Of a stretch of 38,460 nt of DNA, positions 4,228-28,146 are shown piece by piece. Numbering within the stretch: position 1 is the stretch's first letter; each line of letters starts with the position of its first letter. Source of the stretch: a virus; IMG/VR virus record IMGVR_UViG_3300006854_000036, positions 1 to 38,460 of that record. One strand, given 5' to 3'. The notes below the pieces were generated by a model that was not told the DNA's origin, ran no database searches, and saw nothing but the letters and a program-made list of their open reading frames with translations. The position numbers and the translations under genes are program-made.

Positions 4228-4979
4228 CCGCGCGCGCGCAGGGCGTTACGATGCCCGAGACGAAGCCACTGGAACGCAAATCCGTGACGCTGGAGATCAA
4301 AGACGCTGCGAAGGGCCAGGTCGAGGCCGTCTTCGCGACATTCGACGTCATCGACCATCACAGCGACTGGACCGAGCCCACTGCATTCGAGGACGGCGCT
4401 GAAGTACTGATCGGATCATGGGGACATGGCACGGTGTTCGGGGAACCCCCCGTCGGCAAAGGCGTCATCAAAGTCACCAAAAAGGACGCACGGCTCGTCG
4501 GGAACTACTTCCTCGACACCGCTGCCGGTCTCGAGCAATTCACTACCGTCAAGAATGTGGGCGGTCAGCAGGAATGGTCGTACTCCTTCGAGATCAAAGC
4601 GACCGGTGAGGTGACCGAGGAGCTGCGCCAGCGCGGCGTGCGGCGCGTGCTCTCGAAGCTCCTGGTCCATGAGGTGAGTCCGGTAATGCGCGGCGCCGGG
4701 ATCGATACGCGCACCGTTACGGCGAAGTGCGCGAAATGCGGCGGCGACCATGCGGCGGAGGAATCCGGCAAAGGAAAACCGGCCGACGCGGCATCCGCCG
4801 CAGCAGAACCGGTCGCCGAGCAGAAGACCGACGAGAAACCGGCTGACAAACCGGTTGACAAGCCCGCCGAGCCGACGGCGGAGCAGAAGGCCGCCGAGGA
4901 AGCGCGCAAGCGTCAGCGCGCGGAGATCGATGTGGAGGTCGAGCGGTTTGAGCGAACCCGTCGCCGTCTCGGTTACTAA
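4224..4979 (+). CDS. Prohead protease (HK97 gp4-like, peptidase family U35)
   Basis: Maturation protease that cleaves the capsid delta domain and itself inside the prohead. The first 165 residues match the family: a conserved histidine in SWGHGTVFGEPPVGKG and the serine-bearing strand LVHEVSPVMRGAG, the usual His/Ser pair. A CAKCGGDH knuckle follows, then a long Ala/Glu/Lys/Pro tail with repeated EKPADKPVDKPAEP, probably a scaffold or linker segment discarded during maturation. The start ATG overlaps the portal stop (ATGA). A second ATG at 4251 is possible. It lies between portal and capsid as expected. Confidence 0.88.
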   Translation: MTARAQGVTMPETKPLERKSVTLEIKDAAKGQVEAVFATFDVIDHHSDWTEPTAFEDGAEVLIGSWGHGTVFGEPPVGKGVIKVTKKDARLVGNYFLDTAAGLEQFTTVKNVGGQQEWSYSFEIKATGEVTEELRQRGVRRVLSKLLVHEVSPVMRGAGIDTRTVTAKCAKCGGDHAAEESGKGKPADAASAAAEPVAEQKTDEKPADKPVDKPAEPTAEQKAAEEARKRQRAEIDVEVERFERTRRRLGY

Positions 4980-9011: not shown

Positions 9012-9677
9012 ATGGATGATATCCGCAACCTTCTGCTAATCGGTGAAGGCAAGTTCGGTGACGACAATCAGGCGCAGCAACGCGGCGACTGGTGGGGCGG
9101 CGCGATCGTCAACGAGCTGTATGGCCGCTATACCGAGCTCATGCTGCGCGGCAAGCTGCTCATCTTCTCCTCAGCTGCAGCCGGCCTCGCGATCGGCGTC
9201 GCGGGGAACAACAACCCGACGATCTGGAATCCTGCGGGTTCGGGCCGGTTGTTCGTACCCATCCGCACGCTGCTCGGCTATGTCTCGACGACACAGGTCG
9301 CCGGGCATTACGCCTGGGCCTATCAGACCGACGTCGGATCCGCGATCGCTACGGGCGCGCCCATTACCGCATTCACAAAACTTCCGCCAGTCAACGCATT
9401 GATCGGCGCGCGCAATCAGAAGAGCCCGATCGTTTTCGCGACGGCGGTCACGTTCGGGGCGGCACCGACATATCTGCGGCCTACGGGTCTGAGCAATGCG
9501 GCGATGGCGGCGGCGACGGCCATCGCGCCGTTCACGCAGATCCTCGACGAGGATGGCACGCTCGGGCTTCTGCCTGGCTGCGCGTTGCAGCTCTGCGCCA
9601 ATGCCGCAGTCGCAGCGGTTCAGGCCGTGGCGATCATTGGCATCGATCTCCCGGCGCCACCGGGCTATGAGAGCTAA
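9012..9677 (+). CDS. Hypothetical structural protein
   Basis: A 221-residue protein rich in Ala, Gly, Thr and Pro, with an AGGAG site overlapping the previous stop. It starts with a helical DDIRNLLLIGEGKFGDDN stretch, then long hydrophobic beta-type segments (LLIFSSAAAGLAIGVAG; IAPFTQILDEDGTLGLLPG). The hydrophobic parts are short and interrupted by Gly/Pro, so they look like a virion shell rather than membrane spans. It sits inside the connector cluster and is probably a neck or head accessory protein. No known family was recognised. Confidence 0.6.
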   Translation: MDDIRNLLLIGEGKFGDDNQAQQRGDWWGGAIVNELYGRYTELMLRGKLLIFSSAAAGLAIGVAGNNNPTIWNPAGSGRLFVPIRTLLGYVSTTQVAGHYAWAYQTDVGSAIATGAPITAFTKLPPVNALIGARNQKSPIVFATAVTFGAAPTYLRPTGLSNAAMAAATAIAPFTQILDEDGTLGLLPGCALQLCANAAVAAVQAVAIIGIDLPAPPGYES

Positions 9678-19794: not shown

Positions 19795-20339
19795 CGACCT
19801 GGGCCGAGGCCGCGAAGCTGGAAGTCACGTCAGTCACGATCGACCGCGATCGCGGCGAGGGGCCGCCGCGCTGCTGCACGACGGCCCGCGTCCCGGCAGA
19901 TGGTCTGGCGTGGTGGGGGGAGATGCCGCCCGAGCTCCTCGCGATCGCGCGCAGCCGGCTTCCGCAGCTCTTAGAAATTGCCGACGAGGACCTCTATCTC
20001 TGCGCTGGGTGCGTGGAGGTCCTCATCCGCGAGCAGCTCGCCACGCGCGCGGATATCGCGCGCGGGCATGGATTGTCACCGAAGCTGATCGCGAAGGCCT
20101 GGATCCATGACGAGGAATTCTGGCGTCGCGGACCGGAGTCGGCGCCGGCAGAGGTCACCGCGCAGCCCTGGTGGCAAGAGTATCAGGCGCTCGTGGCAGC
20201 GCCACAGCAACAGCTATTGATGGGTGCGGATCTCGAGCTCGCGGAAACGACGGCGCGCGGGCGCTGGAAAACGGATGTGCAGGAGCTGCTCCGGCGCTAT
20301 GCCGCGGACGATCAGGTCAGTGCTACGGGGTTGCCTTGA
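19791..20339 (+). CDS. Hypothetical protein after tail hub, probable CTG start
   Basis: The frame stays protein-like back to CTG 19791, which sits four bases after AGGAGGT and overlaps the hub stop as CTGA. An ATG at 19923 would drop 44 sensible residues including RGEGPPRCCTTARVPADG, so a CTG start is likelier. The product is 182 aa, with cysteine pairs RCC and CAGC, then a helical C-terminal half (DLELAETTARGRWKTDVQELLRR). It may be a tail accessory. Its 3' end overlaps the convergent lipoprotein gene by 17 bases. Confidence 0.6.
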   Translation: MTTWAEAAKLEVTSVTIDRDRGEGPPRCCTTARVPADGLAWWGEMPPELLAIARSRLPQLLEIADEDLYLCAGCVEVLIREQLATRADIARGHGLSPKLIAKAWIHDEEFWRRGPESAPAEVTAQPWWQEYQALVAAPQQQLLMGADLELAETTARGRWKTDVQELLRRYAADDQVSATGLP

Positions 20340-21084
20340 GATCGTAAGCCGTGCCGCCGTCCTGCCAGTCAGACGAGCATTCTCCCGGTGCGTCCAGATG
20401 ATAGGTTAATGGAGCGTCCGACGTGCGCTTCATCCATGGCGCCGCAGATCCGATGTTGCTGCCGAGCGCCAGCATGAGCGTGTCCTGGGTCGCCACGATT
20501 GTGGTCTGTCCGAACGTCGTATCGACGACGCCATCCTTCCAAAAGCTGATGACGCGCTCATCGACGGCGATCACGGCTTTGAAATTCCCCTTCCCCCAAT
20601 TCGCATCCGAATAGGTGAGCACGCCATTCGATCGGATGACGATCGCGGAGTCGACGCCGATCGGCGGATTCTCCGTGCCGCGTCTGCCGTTGGGTGAGTT
20701 GTAGCAGATATGCTGCGAGGACCAGGTGCCCTTGGCGGACAGATCATCGAGCGTGGCAATGCCGAGCGAGTCCGACACGGCCGTGCCGGCGACGGACGCA
20801 TGGATCGCGCCGCGCGCCTCGTGTGCGCCGAGGAGGGAGTCGCTTTGCTGCGTGAAGCCGCCAGGCAACGTCCACGTCACCGCCGGCGCCGCGACGGTAT
20901 CCCCATTGTCCAGCACGGCGCGGACGAGTCTCGCGAGGCTGAGCTTCTGCCCACGCCAGAAGCCGGTGTCCTGAGCCATAAGTAGCTTGACGACCGCTGG
21001 CGGTGGGGGTGGGGGCGGCGGAGAGATGGAATCCTTGCAGGCGGCTAACGTTAGCAAGGCTGTCGCAATCAGGAATCGATTCAT
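20323..21084 (-). CDS. Phage-encoded outer lipoprotein (cargo gene)
   Basis: Reads against the surrounding late genes. MNRFLIATALLTLAACKD is a clean lipoprotein signal with lipobox LAAC (C16) and no aspartate at +2, so it would be acylated and probably sent to the outer membrane. A poly-proline run (residues about 22-30) tethers a body of about 215 residues, beta-rich, with Ig-like wording (VTWTLPGG) and a repeated DTTxxQDTL character. Signal-peptide lipoproteins carried in late regions often alter the infected cell surface, for example by superinfection exclusion. The gene is coupled by ATGA with the membrane gene encoded just upstream of it on the same strand. Confidence 0.78.
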   Translation of the reverse strand: MNRFLIATALLTLAACKDSISPPPPPPPPAVVKLLMAQDTGFWRGQKLSLARLVRAVLDNGDTVAAPAVTWTLPGGFTQQSDSLLGAHEARGAIHASVAGTAVSDSLGIATLDDLSAKGTWSSQHICYNSPNGRRGTENPPIGVDSAIVIRSNGVLTYSDANWGKGNFKAVIAVDERVISFWKDGVVDTTFGQTTIVATQDTLMLALGSNIGSAAPWMKRTSDAPLTYHLDAPGECSSDWQDGGTAYDLKATP

Positions 21085-24532: not shown

Positions 24533-25143
24533 AGTTCGGGAATGTGACTCTGAGCGCCGGTATGCTGCTGGCGATTGGCCTGGCGGGCTGGCTCCTGGCT
24601 ACCTGCGCGCGACGCGATGGGATCGCGATCGGCAGGCAGCTTGCCCATGATGATGCGACCGATCGGATCAATGCCGCGCGCGCCGCGGCCGAGATTGAGG
24701 CGACCACCACCTTTCGTCATCAGCTTGATTCGCTCGCCCGCGCGAATACCGCAAGCCGCGCGCTTCCCGCGCAGCGCGCGCGGTCCGATTCTGCCGGCGC
24801 CGCGATCGCGGCCATCCCTGACTCGCTCATTCCGAAGAGGCGGGTCGAAGATCTGCGGCACGAGAAGGACTCGACGATCGCGCTGCTCGATTCAATCGTG
24901 GCGCATGATTCGGTGGGCATCCGCGCGCGCGACGTGCGGATCCTCGCGCTCGAGAGCTCGGTCCGATCATATGCCGATACGATCGTCCCAAACCTCACGC
25001 GCGATCGAAACAAATGGCGCCAGCGCGCGTTAGCCAATTGCGGACTGCAGCTGACGGCGGGATACGGCCCACGCGGGGTCGATGCGGTGGCCGGGTATGG
25101 CTGCAAGATCCCGCTGCGACTTCCCCTGTTAGGCGGCTTCTAG
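24529..25143 (+). CDS. Spanin-like membrane protein with coiled coil
   Basis: 204 residues from ATG 24529 (ATGA overlap). Residues 9-29 are a membrane anchor (AGMLLAIGLAGWLLATCA) with a cysteine where a lipobox might be, then a long charged helix-rich region (DATDRINAARAAAEIEATTTF; RVEDLRHEKDSTIALLDSI; RDVRILALESSVRSYADTI) that suits the periplasmic coiled coil of an i-spanin. The end (LTAGYGPRGVDAVAGYGCK) is glycine/beta-rich, a layout common in phage spanin-type lysis proteins. It closes the rightward lysis operon. An o-spanin overlapping in another frame was not identified. Confidence 0.62.
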   Translation: MKFGNVTLSAGMLLAIGLAGWLLATCARRDGIAIGRQLAHDDATDRINAARAAAEIEATTTFRHQLDSLARANTASRALPAQRARSDSAGAAIAAIPDSLIPKRRVEDLRHEKDSTIALLDSIVAHDSVGIRARDVRILALESSVRSYADTIVPNLTRDRNKWRQRALANCGLQLTAGYGPRGVDAVAGYGCKIPLRLPLLGGF

Positions 25144-25226
25144 GGTCTTCGGGAGGCATTCGGCCAGGGCGTGCCTAAACGTGACGCATGGCACCAACAG
25201 GCTGGAATGTACGTAGGGGCTAAACC

Positions 25227-25257
25227 GGCCGATTGAGCCGAAATGGCCCAACCGGCC
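25227..25257 (-). ncRNA. Hairpin in the 3' trailer of the tRNA transcript
   Basis: On the minus-strand RNA a 13-pair stem forms around loop AUUUC, with two G·U pairs. The same positions would be A·C mismatches on the plus strand, so the structure is suited to minus-strand RNA. It lies about 54 bases after the tRNA 3' end. It may stop or stabilise the tRNA transcript; no strong U run follows. Confidence 0.4.
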
Positions 25258-25310
25258 CACTTGCAAGATTCTCTCGGTGCCGTCATATATACGGCGCCGC
25301 TGGTGTTCGA

Positions 25311-25404
25311 CGGAGGCGGTGGGTTTCGAACCCACGGATCGCATTGGACGATGCGACCGCCCGATTAAGAGTCGGGTGCAATAAACCAGCTCTGCCACGC
25401 CTCC
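25311..25404 (-). tRNA. tRNA with long variable arm and anticodon CUU
   Basis: The RNA reads from 25404 down to 25311. Acceptor stem GGAGGCG/CGCCTCC (7 pairs), discriminator G73 (25311), D stem GCAG/TTGC with loop AGCTGGTTTA, anticodon stem CCCGA/TCGGG with loop CTCTTAA (anticodon CUU, lysine AAG), a 24-base variable region containing a TCGCAT/ATGCGA stem, and T arm GTGGG-TTCGAAA-CCCAC. CCA is not encoded. Long variable arms and G73 are serine-type identity features, while the anticodon says lysine, so the charged amino acid is uncertain. It has its own candidate promoter. The cloverleaf was built by hand. Confidence 0.85.
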
Positions 25405-25413
25405 AAGTCTGAT

Positions 25414-25625: not shown

Positions 25626-26551
25626 CTACGCCGCGAGCGCCGCGGCTACTTCCCCGCCCTCGCGCGCTTCCATGGCCTCGGCCGGCGCGGCGATCGCCGC
25701 GCGGTCGAGGATGAAATCGGCGGCTTTCTGCGCCTGCTGGCCTGCATAGATCAGCATCGACGGATCCGCGCGCATGGCCTTAAGCCAATTCGCCAGGTAG
25801 GCCGCCGCGTTGTTCATCGTCGCGTCATTCTCGAGGTCGCAGCTGGCCATCAGGAAGGAGGCGCCCATCTCGGCGACGAGCTCCTCGCGTGAGTACTGCT
25901 CGGAGCCGAACGACGTCGATCTTGCGGCCAACGCGCGAGGCGTGCGACGTGCTGTGCGTCAGCTCGTGGAATAGCGTCGCATAGTAACCGGCCGCGGAAT
26001 AGAAGCTCTCGCGGTTTGGCATGGCGACGATGTCCGCCGCCGGCGAGTAGGACGCCTGGTCATCGCCATGCACGATCGCCGGACGCTTCGGCATGTCGGC
26101 GACGAGCTGCTCGGCTGCGGCGATCGGGTCGAAGCCCTTCGGCGCATCGGCCGCGGCCGGGACCGTCAGGCCCTCGCACTGCTCGACGTTGAAGACCGTG
26201 TAATAGCGGACCGTCGGGAACGGCCGGTCGAGCTGCTCCTTGGTGCCATCCTTGCGCTTGCGCTCCGAGACCCAGCGCCAGAATACGACCGGCGTCCCCT
26301 TCTCGCCCTTCTTCACATGGCCGCCGAGCTCGAGCGCCTGCTTGAACGTCACCCCAGTAGGGCGAGCTATAGCCTGCCCACAGCAGCGCGAAGACATTCG
26401 AGCCGCGGTAGGGCTGGCCGCTGGCTAGGTTGCGCGGCATGTCGGCCGACTTCCACGGCTTCCGCCATGGGATGACGCCCTGCTCGAGGGCGGCGATCAG
26501 GCGATCGGTGACGATCTGGTAGACCTTGGAGAGCTGCATCTGGCTATTCAC
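25626..26551 (-). pseudogene. ardC: ArdC-type antirestriction protein, broken by two frameshifts
   Basis: Three frames together spell one ArdC-like protein of about 305 aa. Part 1 from GTG 26551: ArdC N-terminal domain with VIPWRKPWKS and SGQPYRGSNVFALLWAGYS. Part 2: VTFKQALELGGHVKKGEKGTPVVFW and the zincin motif ATLFHELTHS. Part 3: FGSEQYSREELVAEMGASFLMA and the helical end. Each shift is +1: one surplus G in the GGGG near 26356, and one extra base near 25928. ArdC proteins bind single-stranded DNA and protect incoming DNA from restriction. As sequenced, the full protein cannot be made. Errors in the sequence are a real alternative, since all domains keep their conserved residues. Confidence 0.75.
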
Positions 26552-26581
26552 GGGAACCCCGTCGTTTAGTGGACGGGGATA

Positions 26582-26610
26582 TATATAGGCGCTAGCGCCT
26601 ATATTGTCAA
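26582..26610 (-). promoter_or_regulatory. Strong minus-strand promoter of ArdC
   Basis: Minus strand: TTGACA (26610-26605), 17-base spacer, TATATA (26587-26582). The spacer is largely a perfect palindrome. Transcription would start near 26575, giving a leader of about 24 bases before GTG 26551. Confidence 0.75.
26583..26604. promoter_or_regulatory. Operator 1: perfect 22-bp palindrome
   Basis: Half-site ATATAGGCGCT followed by its exact complement. It fills the spacer of the minus-strand promoter, so a bound dimer would block RNA polymerase. It is repeated exactly 50 bases away as operator 2. Confidence 0.75.
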
Positions 26611-26627
26611 GGGGTCTAGGACAGGGC

Positions 26628-26655
26628 TTGACATATAGGCTCTAGCGCCTATATT
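26628..26655 (+). promoter_or_regulatory. Strong plus-strand promoter of the DUF4258 gene
   Basis: TTGACA (26628-26633), 16-base spacer, TATATT (26650-26655): 6/6 and 5/6 matches. A start near 26662 gives almost no leader before ATG 26666. The spacer is operator 2. Confidence 0.75.
26633..26654. promoter_or_regulatory. Operator 2: near-perfect 22-bp palindrome
   Basis: Same 22-base site as operator 1 except one base (ATATAGGCTCT on the left half). It occupies the spacer of the plus-strand promoter. Centre-to-centre distance from operator 1 is 50 bp, about five helical turns, so one protein could bridge both. Confidence 0.72.
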
Positions 26656-26665
26656 GGGCTTTACA

Positions 26666-26911
26666 ATGAGCCCGCTCCAGATTCAGTATTCAGACCACGC
26701 AGTCGTCGAAATGCGGAAGGCGAAGATCACCCGGCAGGTGGTCCGGCTGGTGCTGGCGCATGGCGTGAAGGCCTTCGATGGACGGCGTGGGCACGAGGAC
26801 TATTGGACCTCAACGCTCCAGATCGAAAACCAGTCCTATCAGGTCTCGTGGGTGCAGAAGGCGGGCTACATTCTCGTGGTCACCGCCTATCGACTCGGCG
26901 AGTATGACTGA
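26666..26911 (+). CDS. DUF4258 protein, putative toxin of a toxin-antitoxin-like pair
   Basis: 81 residues from ATG 26666; an upstream TTG in the same frame lies inside the promoter and cannot be used. The family pattern is visible: QYSDHAVVEMRKAKITRQVVRLVL, then the strands YQVSWVQKAGYILVVTAYRL. DUF4258 proteins are RelE-like in outline and commonly paired with DUF2283 antitoxin-type proteins, as here. The promoter leaves about 3-4 leader bases, so the mRNA is nearly leaderless. The downstream gene starts 9 bases later with AGGAGG. Confidence 0.72.
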   Translation: MSPLQIQYSDHAVVEMRKAKITRQVVRLVLAHGVKAFDGRRGHEDYWTSTLQIENQSYQVSWVQKAGYILVVTAYRLGEYD

Positions 26912-26920
26912 GGAGGATGC

Positions 26921-27343
26921 ATGCAGGCGACGTATGATGAAAAGGCGGATGCGATGAGCATTACCCTGCTCGAGGCCGACCGGCTGCGGACCGTCCAGGT
27001 CTCGCGCGGCGTCCTTGCGCACTTCGATCGTGATGACCGTCTGATCGAAATCGAGATCATCGGCGCGAGCGGATTCTATCCGCCCGCGGTGCTCGAGCGT
27101 CTGAGCTCGCCGGCCGAGCTGCTCACCCTGGCCGATGCCGCGAAGGAATTCGGTCTGTCGCCGACGACACTGCGCAATCAAGTCCTCAAGGGGAAGATCG
27201 CTGCGGTGAAGTCGGGGCGTGACTGGATGGTGACACGTGCGGTCATGATGAGCTATCTCGACAATCGGGCGCCGAGTGGCCGGCAGGCTCGGCGGAAGAA
27301 AGCGCGACGGCTGAAGCGCCAGGCTGCAACGATCGCTCGTTAG
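26921..27343 (+). CDS. DUF2283 plus helix-turn-helix protein (antitoxin/repressor candidate)
   Basis: 140 residues. N-terminal half is a DUF2283-type domain (ATYDEKADAMSITL, VSRGVLAHFDRDDRLIEIEI, about 2-52). Next is an excisionase-like helix-turn-helix (LLTLADAAKEFGLSPTTLRNQ ... KSGRDWMVTRAVMMSYL, about 68-112). A basic tail (QARRKKARRLKRQ) may bind DNA. A single protein with antitoxin and DNA-binding parts is the natural ligand for the two 22-bp operators upstream. AGGAGG sits four bases before ATG. Stops of this gene and the repressor downstream overlap (27340-27343), transcribed convergently. Confidence 0.75.
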   Translation: MQATYDEKADAMSITLLEADRLRTVQVSRGVLAHFDRDDRLIEIEIIGASGFYPPAVLERLSSPAELLTLADAAKEFGLSPTTLRNQVLKGKIAAVKSGRDWMVTRAVMMSYLDNRAPSGRQARRKKARRLKRQAATIAR

Positions 27344-28134
27344 CTGTTGATCCCTTCACCGCATCCCGGGCAGAACTTCGCACCGGTGGGCACTGCGGCA
27401 CCGCAGATATGTCGTTCCTGCGCCGGTAGGCCGATCTCCGCCGCTAGTTCATCAGTGATGTGAAACATTCGACGCATGTCAAAGCCGAGCACATGGAGAT
27501 CCCGAGCAAGGGTCTTCAGTGCCCAGACGAGGGCCTGTTGACGACCTTTCTCCGTTGTGCCATCGAAGAGAACTGGCGCCTCGCTCCGCGCGAGGTCCTC
27601 TTGTAGGGCAGCTGCGATGCGTTTTGCTTCAGCAGCCAATTTCAGGAGCTCCCCGCCCTCGTGCTCCGCATGATCTGTGCGGGGGTGTCCGGGGGGATCT
27701 GGAGGCCGATCTCCCCACTCGCTCTCACGCGAATGCTGATCAATTGCAATAGCTGAGGAATCTTGAGATTCTACACCCGTTCCAGGCTGCTTCGTCATTG
27801 AGTTATGACGTATCGATCGTTCGCCCTGGAGGTCGCCAGGTGGCATTATGCCCCTTTTGCTGGGAGCCTGCCCACGGCCATGGATGAGCCAGTCGGATGT
27901 CAGGCCCACGAGGCCAAGCTCCCCCTCCGCGAGTAACAGCCGTTTCGACACCGTCTTAGTCACGCTCGCCCGCCGTACACAGTCCTTCAGCGTACCAGCA
28001 CGCAGCCGCGCCACGCGCTCGACATAAGCGAGCGTCGGCTTTGTGTTGGGCGGCGCGCTCAGTGTCGCGAGGCTTAAGAGCCGATCCTGCACCGCCTTAC
28101 TGCCGGTGGATAATTGCCCCTTGACAGATGGCAT
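27340..28134 (-). CDS. Phage repressor-like protein with zinc-ribbon tail
   Basis: ATG 28134 chosen (264 aa); ATG 28224 would add 30 residues (with CPVC) and overlap the divergent gene's start. N-terminal half is helical with KPTLAYVERVARLRAGTLKDCV and the clear repressor motif GLTSDWLIHGRGQAP, which ends the helix-turn-helix region in many CI-type phage repressors. A linker rich in Pro/Asp/His (about 95-165) leads to a helical C-terminus ending ICGAAVPTGAKFCPGCGEG, a CxxC zinc ribbon. No protease (S24) domain is visible, so induction by RecA self-cleavage is unlikely. It is probably autoregulated through GGCATTATGCC sites. Confidence 0.66.
   Translation of the reverse strand: MPSVKGQLSTGSKAVQDRLLSLATLSAPPNTKPTLAYVERVARLRAGTLKDCVRRASVTKTVSKRLLLAEGELGLVGLTSDWLIHGRGQAPSKRGIMPPGDLQGERSIRHNSMTKQPGTGVESQDSSAIAIDQHSRESEWGDRPPDPPGHPRTDHAEHEGGELLKLAAEAKRIAAALQEDLARSEAPVLFDGTTEKGRQQALVWALKTLARDLHVLGFDMRRMFHITDELAAEIGLPAQERHICGAAVPTGAKFCPGCGEGINS
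27842..27852. promoter_or_regulatory. Operator-like site GGCATTATGCC (intragenic)
   Basis: An 11-base inverted repeat (GGCAT-T-ATGCC) within the repressor gene, coding GIMP. The same site covers the repressor's ATG at 28130-28140. The flanks also match (about 17 bases, one mismatch). No other copy was noticed in the window. Confidence 0.4.
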
Positions 28135-28140
28135 TATGCC
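28130..28140. promoter_or_regulatory. Operator-like site GGCATTATGCC over the repressor start
   Basis: Overlaps the ATG of the repressor and lies just downstream of a TTGACA (28121-28126) on the plus strand, and upstream of a second candidate rightward promoter. A repressor binding here could block its own translation start region and the divergent genes. Confidence 0.45.
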
Positions 28141-28146
28141 CTTAAG

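Follow-up and report, generated by a model that had tools for sequence, protein, structure and literature searches.

Our analysis of a virus record from an uncultured phage revealed two divergent predicted promoters that each carry a copy of the same 22-bp palindrome, one promoter facing an ardC anti-restriction gene and the other a putative toxin-antitoxin (TA) pair. The record (IMG/VR virus record IMGVR_UViG_3300006854_000036) comprises 38,460 bases and was analyzed as a whole; it is here referred to as the window, and the features of the locus are listed in Table 1. The arrangement suggested that the candidate antitoxin, a DUF2283 protein with an HTH domain, probably binds both palindromes and represses its own operon as well as ardC. 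In support of this, the palindromes fill both −35/−10 spacers, and their sole two copies in 38 kb lie at the operon of the HTH protein and at ardC. Furthermore, a syntenic relative carries another TA pair, and at both of its promoters the operator differs from that of the window as well.

Table 1. Features of the ardC/TA locus in the 38,460-base window (L003 and L004 are related loci described in the text)
Feature	Position	Strand	Description
ardC anti-restriction gene	25626-26551	−	ArdcN and MPTase-PolyVal domains; frame broken twice (~26353 and ~25919) relative to L003
ardC leader	26552-26579	−	Contains CCCCGTCCACTAAACGACGGGGTTCCC; may fold into a 7-bp stem (prediction); homolog of the L004 leader (CGTCCACTAAnnGACGGGGTTC)
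Predicted ardC promoter	26582-26610	−	TTGACA (26610-26605), 17 bp, TATATA (26587-26582); 10/12; consensus match only
Operator 1	26583-26604	none	ATATAGGCGCTAGCGCCTATAT, a perfect 22-bp palindrome; lies in the spacer of the ardC promoter
Predicted toxin-antitoxin promoter	26628-26655	+	TTGACA (26628-26633), 16 bp, TATATT (26650-26655); 11/12; consensus match only
Operator 2	26633-26654	none	ATATAGGCTCTAGCGCCTATAT, with a single change relative to operator 1 (GCTC instead of GCGC); lies in the spacer of the DUF4258 promoter
DUF4258 protein, toxin candidate	26666-26911	+	81 aa; weak Pfam match; predicted RelE/ParE/MqsR-like fold
DUF2283 + HTH_17 protein, candidate antitoxin/repressor	26921-27343	+	140 aa; both domains over the Pfam cut-off
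CI-like repressor candidate	27340-28134	−	Longest open frame from 28224; position matches the XRE CI-like repressor of the L004 phage

Each palindrome spans the entire −35/−10 spacer together with five of the six bases of the −10 element, and operator 2 additionally takes in the final A of the right −35 element. No other 22-mer of the record comes closer to the operator than 7 mismatches, and a scan of the whole window found only two promoter-like sites with a spacer palindrome of such strength, namely, the ardC and DUF4258 promoters. Neither feature arose by chance in shuffled sequence: no operator match with three or fewer mismatches turned up when the whole window was dinucleotide-shuffled 100 times, and 100 further shuffles gave no pair of like 20-bp palindromes at most 200 bp apart. 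A search of viral contigs for the exact operator words ATAGGCGCTAGCGCCTAT and TTGACATATAGGCNCTAGNGCC returned no match. The twin palindromes are a real, non-random feature of the window, and here the original prediction was accurate: one copy is perfect and the other carries one change, both lie where they had been placed, their centers are 50 bp apart, and two near-consensus promoters (11 of 12 positions on the right, 10 of 12 on the left) face away from each other. The prediction had further equated this distance with about five helix turns and proposed that one repressor might bridge both sites. At 10.5 bp per turn, however, 50 bp corresponds to 4.76 turns, and the operators of the relative L004, described below, are spaced by 65 bp, or 6.19 turns. 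This spacing weakens the bridging idea, and helical phasing was rejected as a conserved trait.

The left-hand gene belongs to the ArdC family, with matches over the cut-off to both PF08401 (ArdcN) and PF18818 (zincin-like metallopeptidase) and a match to the anti-restriction family phrog_7245. In the window, it is split over three frames: alignment with its closest ArdC relative, L003 (86% identity over the matched protein), showed a G run near 26353 to be longer by one base (+1) and two bases to be missing near 25919 (−2). Because the protein pieces still retain this identity, the breaks appear to be either the mark of a recent pseudogene or sequence errors. The naming of ArdC as the left-hand target therefore stood as to family and domains, but not as to an intact frame. 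The frameshifts are a counterweight to the proposed control of ardC, and they could mean that the operators are mere relics on the ardC side, where only autoregulation of the TA pair would still matter. We give this reading the least credence of those considered here: of the two operator copies, it is the perfect one that lies at ardC, the breaks look recent or erroneous, and ardC is intact in L004, which has the same architecture. Just past the end of ardC, at 25309-25405 on the minus strand, ARAGORN predicted a tRNA-Lys(CTT) of approximately 95 nt with an apparent long variable arm. Such an arm is unusual for tRNA-Lys.

On the right, the predicted −10 element lies approximately 11 nt from the start of the candidate toxin gene, the mRNA of which would be nearly leaderless if the predicted promoter is right. 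The encoded protein aligned with the whole DUF4258 profile (PF14076) at 22.6-22.8 bits (E values of 1.4e-4 to 1.2e-4), below the curated cut-off of 25. Its structural model (pLDDT of 91) resembled ParE, RelE, HigB, and MqsR with weak Foldseek E-values, the top TM-score among the listed toxins being that for MqsR (TMq of 0.66, rmsd of 2.3), and the predicted fold supports a place in the RelE/ParE superfamily. A review of this superfamily includes DUF4258 (PF14076) as a member of unknown activity (PMC11980606). The candidate resembles this toxin family in sequence (weakly), in fold, and as a small gene with a coupled partner; according to the same review, however, the usual order is antitoxin-toxin, with some DUF4258-MqsA fusions, whereas in the window the toxin candidate precedes DUF2283-HTH.

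The second gene begins after a gap of 9 bp, and the two form what is expected of a type II TA locus, a small adjacent gene pair in which a predicted toxin-family fold has a partner with a DNA-binding domain. The pairing also recurs in unrelated genomes, though with partners there that carry no HTH. DUF2283 was present in 39 of the 199 Acidobacteriota genomes searched, and most of 30 such loci had a DUF4258-like gene of 75-90 aa directly upstream, usually with a 4-bp overlap; these neighbors were judged by eye, with Pfam confirming DUF4258 in 6 of 19 tested, mainly from those loci. A Lindowbacteria genome contained a DUF4258-DUF2283 pair as well. No added HTH was found on the DUF2283 proteins of the 30 Acidobacteriota loci, which end in tails of 15-28 aa. 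Because the pairing recurs elsewhere without the HTH, DUF4258-DUF2283 is, by sequence, a recurrent coupled pair and the fused HTH of the window is unusual; that DUF2283 proteins elsewhere have no HTH also counts against the proposed repressor role. Searches with DUF2283-HTH and DUF4258 in viral contigs, phages, and plasmids yielded no useful relatives, and a DUF4258 search of 246 Planctomycetota-group genomes came back empty. The TA-like pair that had been predicted on the right was borne out by the toxin-like fold and by the DNA-binding domain of the second gene, with toxicity being putative.

Fold and family matches of the HTH part of DUF2283-HTH were to BldC, to the MerR proteins SoxR and NmlR, and to Xis. 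Taken with the position of the operators inside the spacers, they would fit a MerR-type activator or an excisionase instead of a repressor, which we consider very improbable. MerR activators need spacers of 19-20 bp, but those in the window are 16 and 17 bp long and thus near optimal. Moreover, no integrase was found among the window proteins scanned (part of the genes), and L004 has the same architecture, but with an XRE protein.

The comparison with L004 (IMGVR 3300036861_000513) is central to our reading. Its ArdC is 70% identical to that of the window, and its 28.6-kb contig, G002, has the same gene order and orientation on both flanks of the locus: G002 open reading frames 20992, 21489, ardC, 26605, and 27536 match 22512, 24406, ardC, 28114, and 28816 of the window. 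The place of DUF4258/DUF2283-HTH is occupied by a Gp49 toxin (PF05973, 6.9e-14) and an XRE antitoxin, both of unrelated families, and between this pair and the CI-like repressor lie a lipoprotein-like gene and others. Both L004 palindromes read ACAACGCTAG(C/A)GTTGT. The ardC-side operator is CACAACGCTAGAGTTGTA, in a promoter identified by eye as TTGACA-18-TATACT, and the TA-side operator is TACAACGCTAGCGTTGTA, with a TTGACG element and a weak −10; they are the only operator copies in the contig. The ardC leaders of the two phages are homologous (local score of 44, compared with a best of 32 in 500 shuffles). Of the leader hairpin, which has 7 bp and a z of −2.15 in the window, the L004 counterpart keeps the loop and shows no special stability. 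The ardC promoters have the same −35 element and keep a CGCTAG core in register, while their outer half-sites differ. Because the leader and the −35 element are homologous, the two phages share the ardC promoter as such; it is the operator half-sites inside it that changed, in step with the TA cassette and the TA-side operator. The swap backs that part of the original prediction which assigned control of both promoters to the DNA-binding protein of the pair itself; that DUF2283-HTH binds the sites is what we would presume from it. No other IMG/VR contig contained the leader pattern, and therefore the comparison represents one single swap, seen in one relative, which tempers its weight. The lipoprotein-like genes of the window (20323-21084, LAACKDSISPPPPP) and of G002 (24683-25399, AAACGNPDGP) look Gemmatimonadota-like, and from their style we would guess a Gemmatimonadota host.

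The two phages differ in their CI-like repressors as well, and the operators could have followed another regulator. In that case, the main CI-like repressor, encoded next to the locus, would occupy both operators, and lysogeny would simply keep ardC and the TA pair repressed; the L004 equivalent is a differing XRE CI-like repressor that could have changed along with the operator. We regard this as unlikely. As a rule, a CI repressor binds the control region of its own gene, yet the CI-cro interval contained no operator copy in either phage; the best other match had 7 mismatches over 22 positions for the window and 6 over 18 for G002. Control by the CI-like protein is disfavored because no operator copy lies at the control region of its gene in either phage. 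The window candidate itself yielded a weak zinc-ribbon Pfam match below the cut-off and no PHROGs match. Within its gene, TGGCATTATGCCC occurs twice (~27842-27854 and ~28132-28144), each time at an ATG after a purine-rich stretch, and may represent an internal start or a repeated control element.

The CGCTAG core is common to the operators of both phages despite their unrelated HTH proteins, which could hint at a common binder, and it occurs at the ardC promoters of the window, of L004, and of the Acidobacteriota locus L135. A host factor or an otherwise common regulator recognizing the CGCTAGCG core might bind these sites, and the TA pair would then be unrelated to ardC control. We find this quite unlikely because, outside the core, each phage has matching arms at its two promoters, and these arms are not those of the other phage. 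The loci L003 and L158 (phage MW202801.1) have quite different palindromes, and the core in L004 can be an inheritance from the homologous promoter. The simplest account is binding by the antitoxin candidate of each phage.

A survey of other ardC loci placed the twin operators in a wider setting. L003 and L158 each have one palindrome only, perfect or nearly so, in the spacer of the ardC promoter (TGGGGGCATATGCCCCCA and TAACCTAAGCGATTAGGTTA, respectively), and no TA pair was identified beside ardC in either; that L003, the closest ArdC, is arranged in this way is a further counterweight to the proposed control by the antitoxin. Judged from these sequences, the ardC promoters of such phages seem to be generally under a spacer operator, the word of which is variable. 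Among 173 ardC loci scanned, spacer palindromes occurred in 10 (~6%) versus 1.7% of shuffled sequences, a rough contrast that rests on a 2-mer block shuffle and on criteria set after the window and L004 were known. Upstream of approximately 170 ardC loci, no further clear case of twin palindromes near ardC was found; the candidates L036 and L046-L050 were rejected as AT-rich, L057 and L174 as terminator-like, and L080 for its long repeated upstream region. At L157, where ardC diverges from a HigB/HigA-like pair, an operator of the kind seen in the window was not found. In L254 (45%), the nearest of the other Gp49/XRE pairs, the toxin gene is directly preceded by a palindrome of another sequence, ATATTAGCTATAACTAATAT, and because it differs, the exact operator word is not fixed to the Gp49/XRE family.

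In the Deltaproteobacteria MAG locus L080, a pair judged by eye to be Gp49-like/XRE lies near ardC; an upstream repeat with AGGGAAGATATATCTTCCCT is present three times (at 1471, 2621, and 5013) and recalls the repeated regulatory regions upstream of pLS20 establishment genes. L134 (Malonomonas rubra) contains, far from ardC, two large inverted repeats with the core TATGCTTGCTAGCAAGCATA (at 9438 and 9570) upstream of a plus-strand frame. In L135 (Terriglobus), the ardC promoter and a site upstream of a divergent gene (~4616-4630 and ~4903-4918) share AGAACGCTAG(C/A)GTT, a word with the 12-base core AACGCTAGCGTT that is also present in the L004 operator.

From these comparisons we infer the binding, the identity of the repressor, the repression, its timing, and the toxin activity that make up the following scheme. 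DUF2283-HTH, probably as a dimer, would sit on each palindrome and cover the spacer and the −10 element, keeping RNA polymerase off both promoters, and would in this way autoregulate the DUF4258/DUF2283-HTH operon and repress ardC. Upon entry into a new cell, the repressor would be absent, and ardC and the TA operon would fire at once; as the antitoxin built up, both promoters would be shut off. Anti-restriction would in this way come as a burst, with expression staying low thereafter in a lysogen.

Parts of this scheme have precedents. The ardC gene of the Bacillus plasmid p576 is switched by the Reg repressor and expressed in a burst after entry (PMC8708921). In both cases, an ArdC-family gene has a strong promoter that is, or in the window would be, repressed by an element-encoded autoregulator which represses itself too. 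Reg, however, is a ribbon-helix-helix protein that acts on direct heptamer repeats (TTATCCC dual motifs) upstream of the −35 element, whereas the window has an HTH_17 domain in the candidate antitoxin repressor and 22-bp palindromes in the spacers. The main text of the p576 paper does not mention toxins (PMC8708921). The same source, citing Stanley et al. 2019, describes Aca repressors of phage acr operons, which shut down an anti-defense promoter once an early burst is over (PMC8708921), and the proposed control likewise involves a phage HTH protein that would silence an anti-defense promoter at that stage. In contrast to the Aca arrangement, with its HTH gene after an anti-CRISPR gene in one operon, the HTH gene here follows DUF4258 and partners this toxin-like gene, and the other target would be an anti-restriction gene, ardC, which has a divergent promoter and a separate copy of the operator. 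By analogy, the window system would work like p576 and Aca control without their defining features. RelE-type antitoxins are described as repressing promoters outside their own operon in accounts of MqsA (PMC4894380) and SavRS (PMC5913840). MqsR/MqsA resembles the window pair in its toxin-first operon, RelE/MqsR-like fold, DNA-binding antitoxin, palindromic operator, and, in the proposed scheme, extra target promoter; it differs in that the antitoxin candidate of the window is a DUF2283 + HTH_17 protein and not MqsA, and the extra target would be the adjacent anti-restriction gene. The open-licence papers searched yielded no account of an anti-restriction gene under the control of an antitoxin.

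Phages and plasmids need anti-restriction early and shut it off later. We suggest, more tentatively than repression by the antitoxin itself, that in this phage lineage the ardC promoter may be wired to whichever TA cassette is adjacent and that such cassettes may be exchanged together with both operators. The antitoxin would then be a repressor open to exchange, confining anti-restriction to the entry phase and making the silence of ardC depend on the presence of the TA pair. The natural swap of a TA pair plus operator between relatives makes this linkage directly testable. If the antitoxin is the switch, the TA pair gains a role beyond maintenance, and its loss would re-open ardC.
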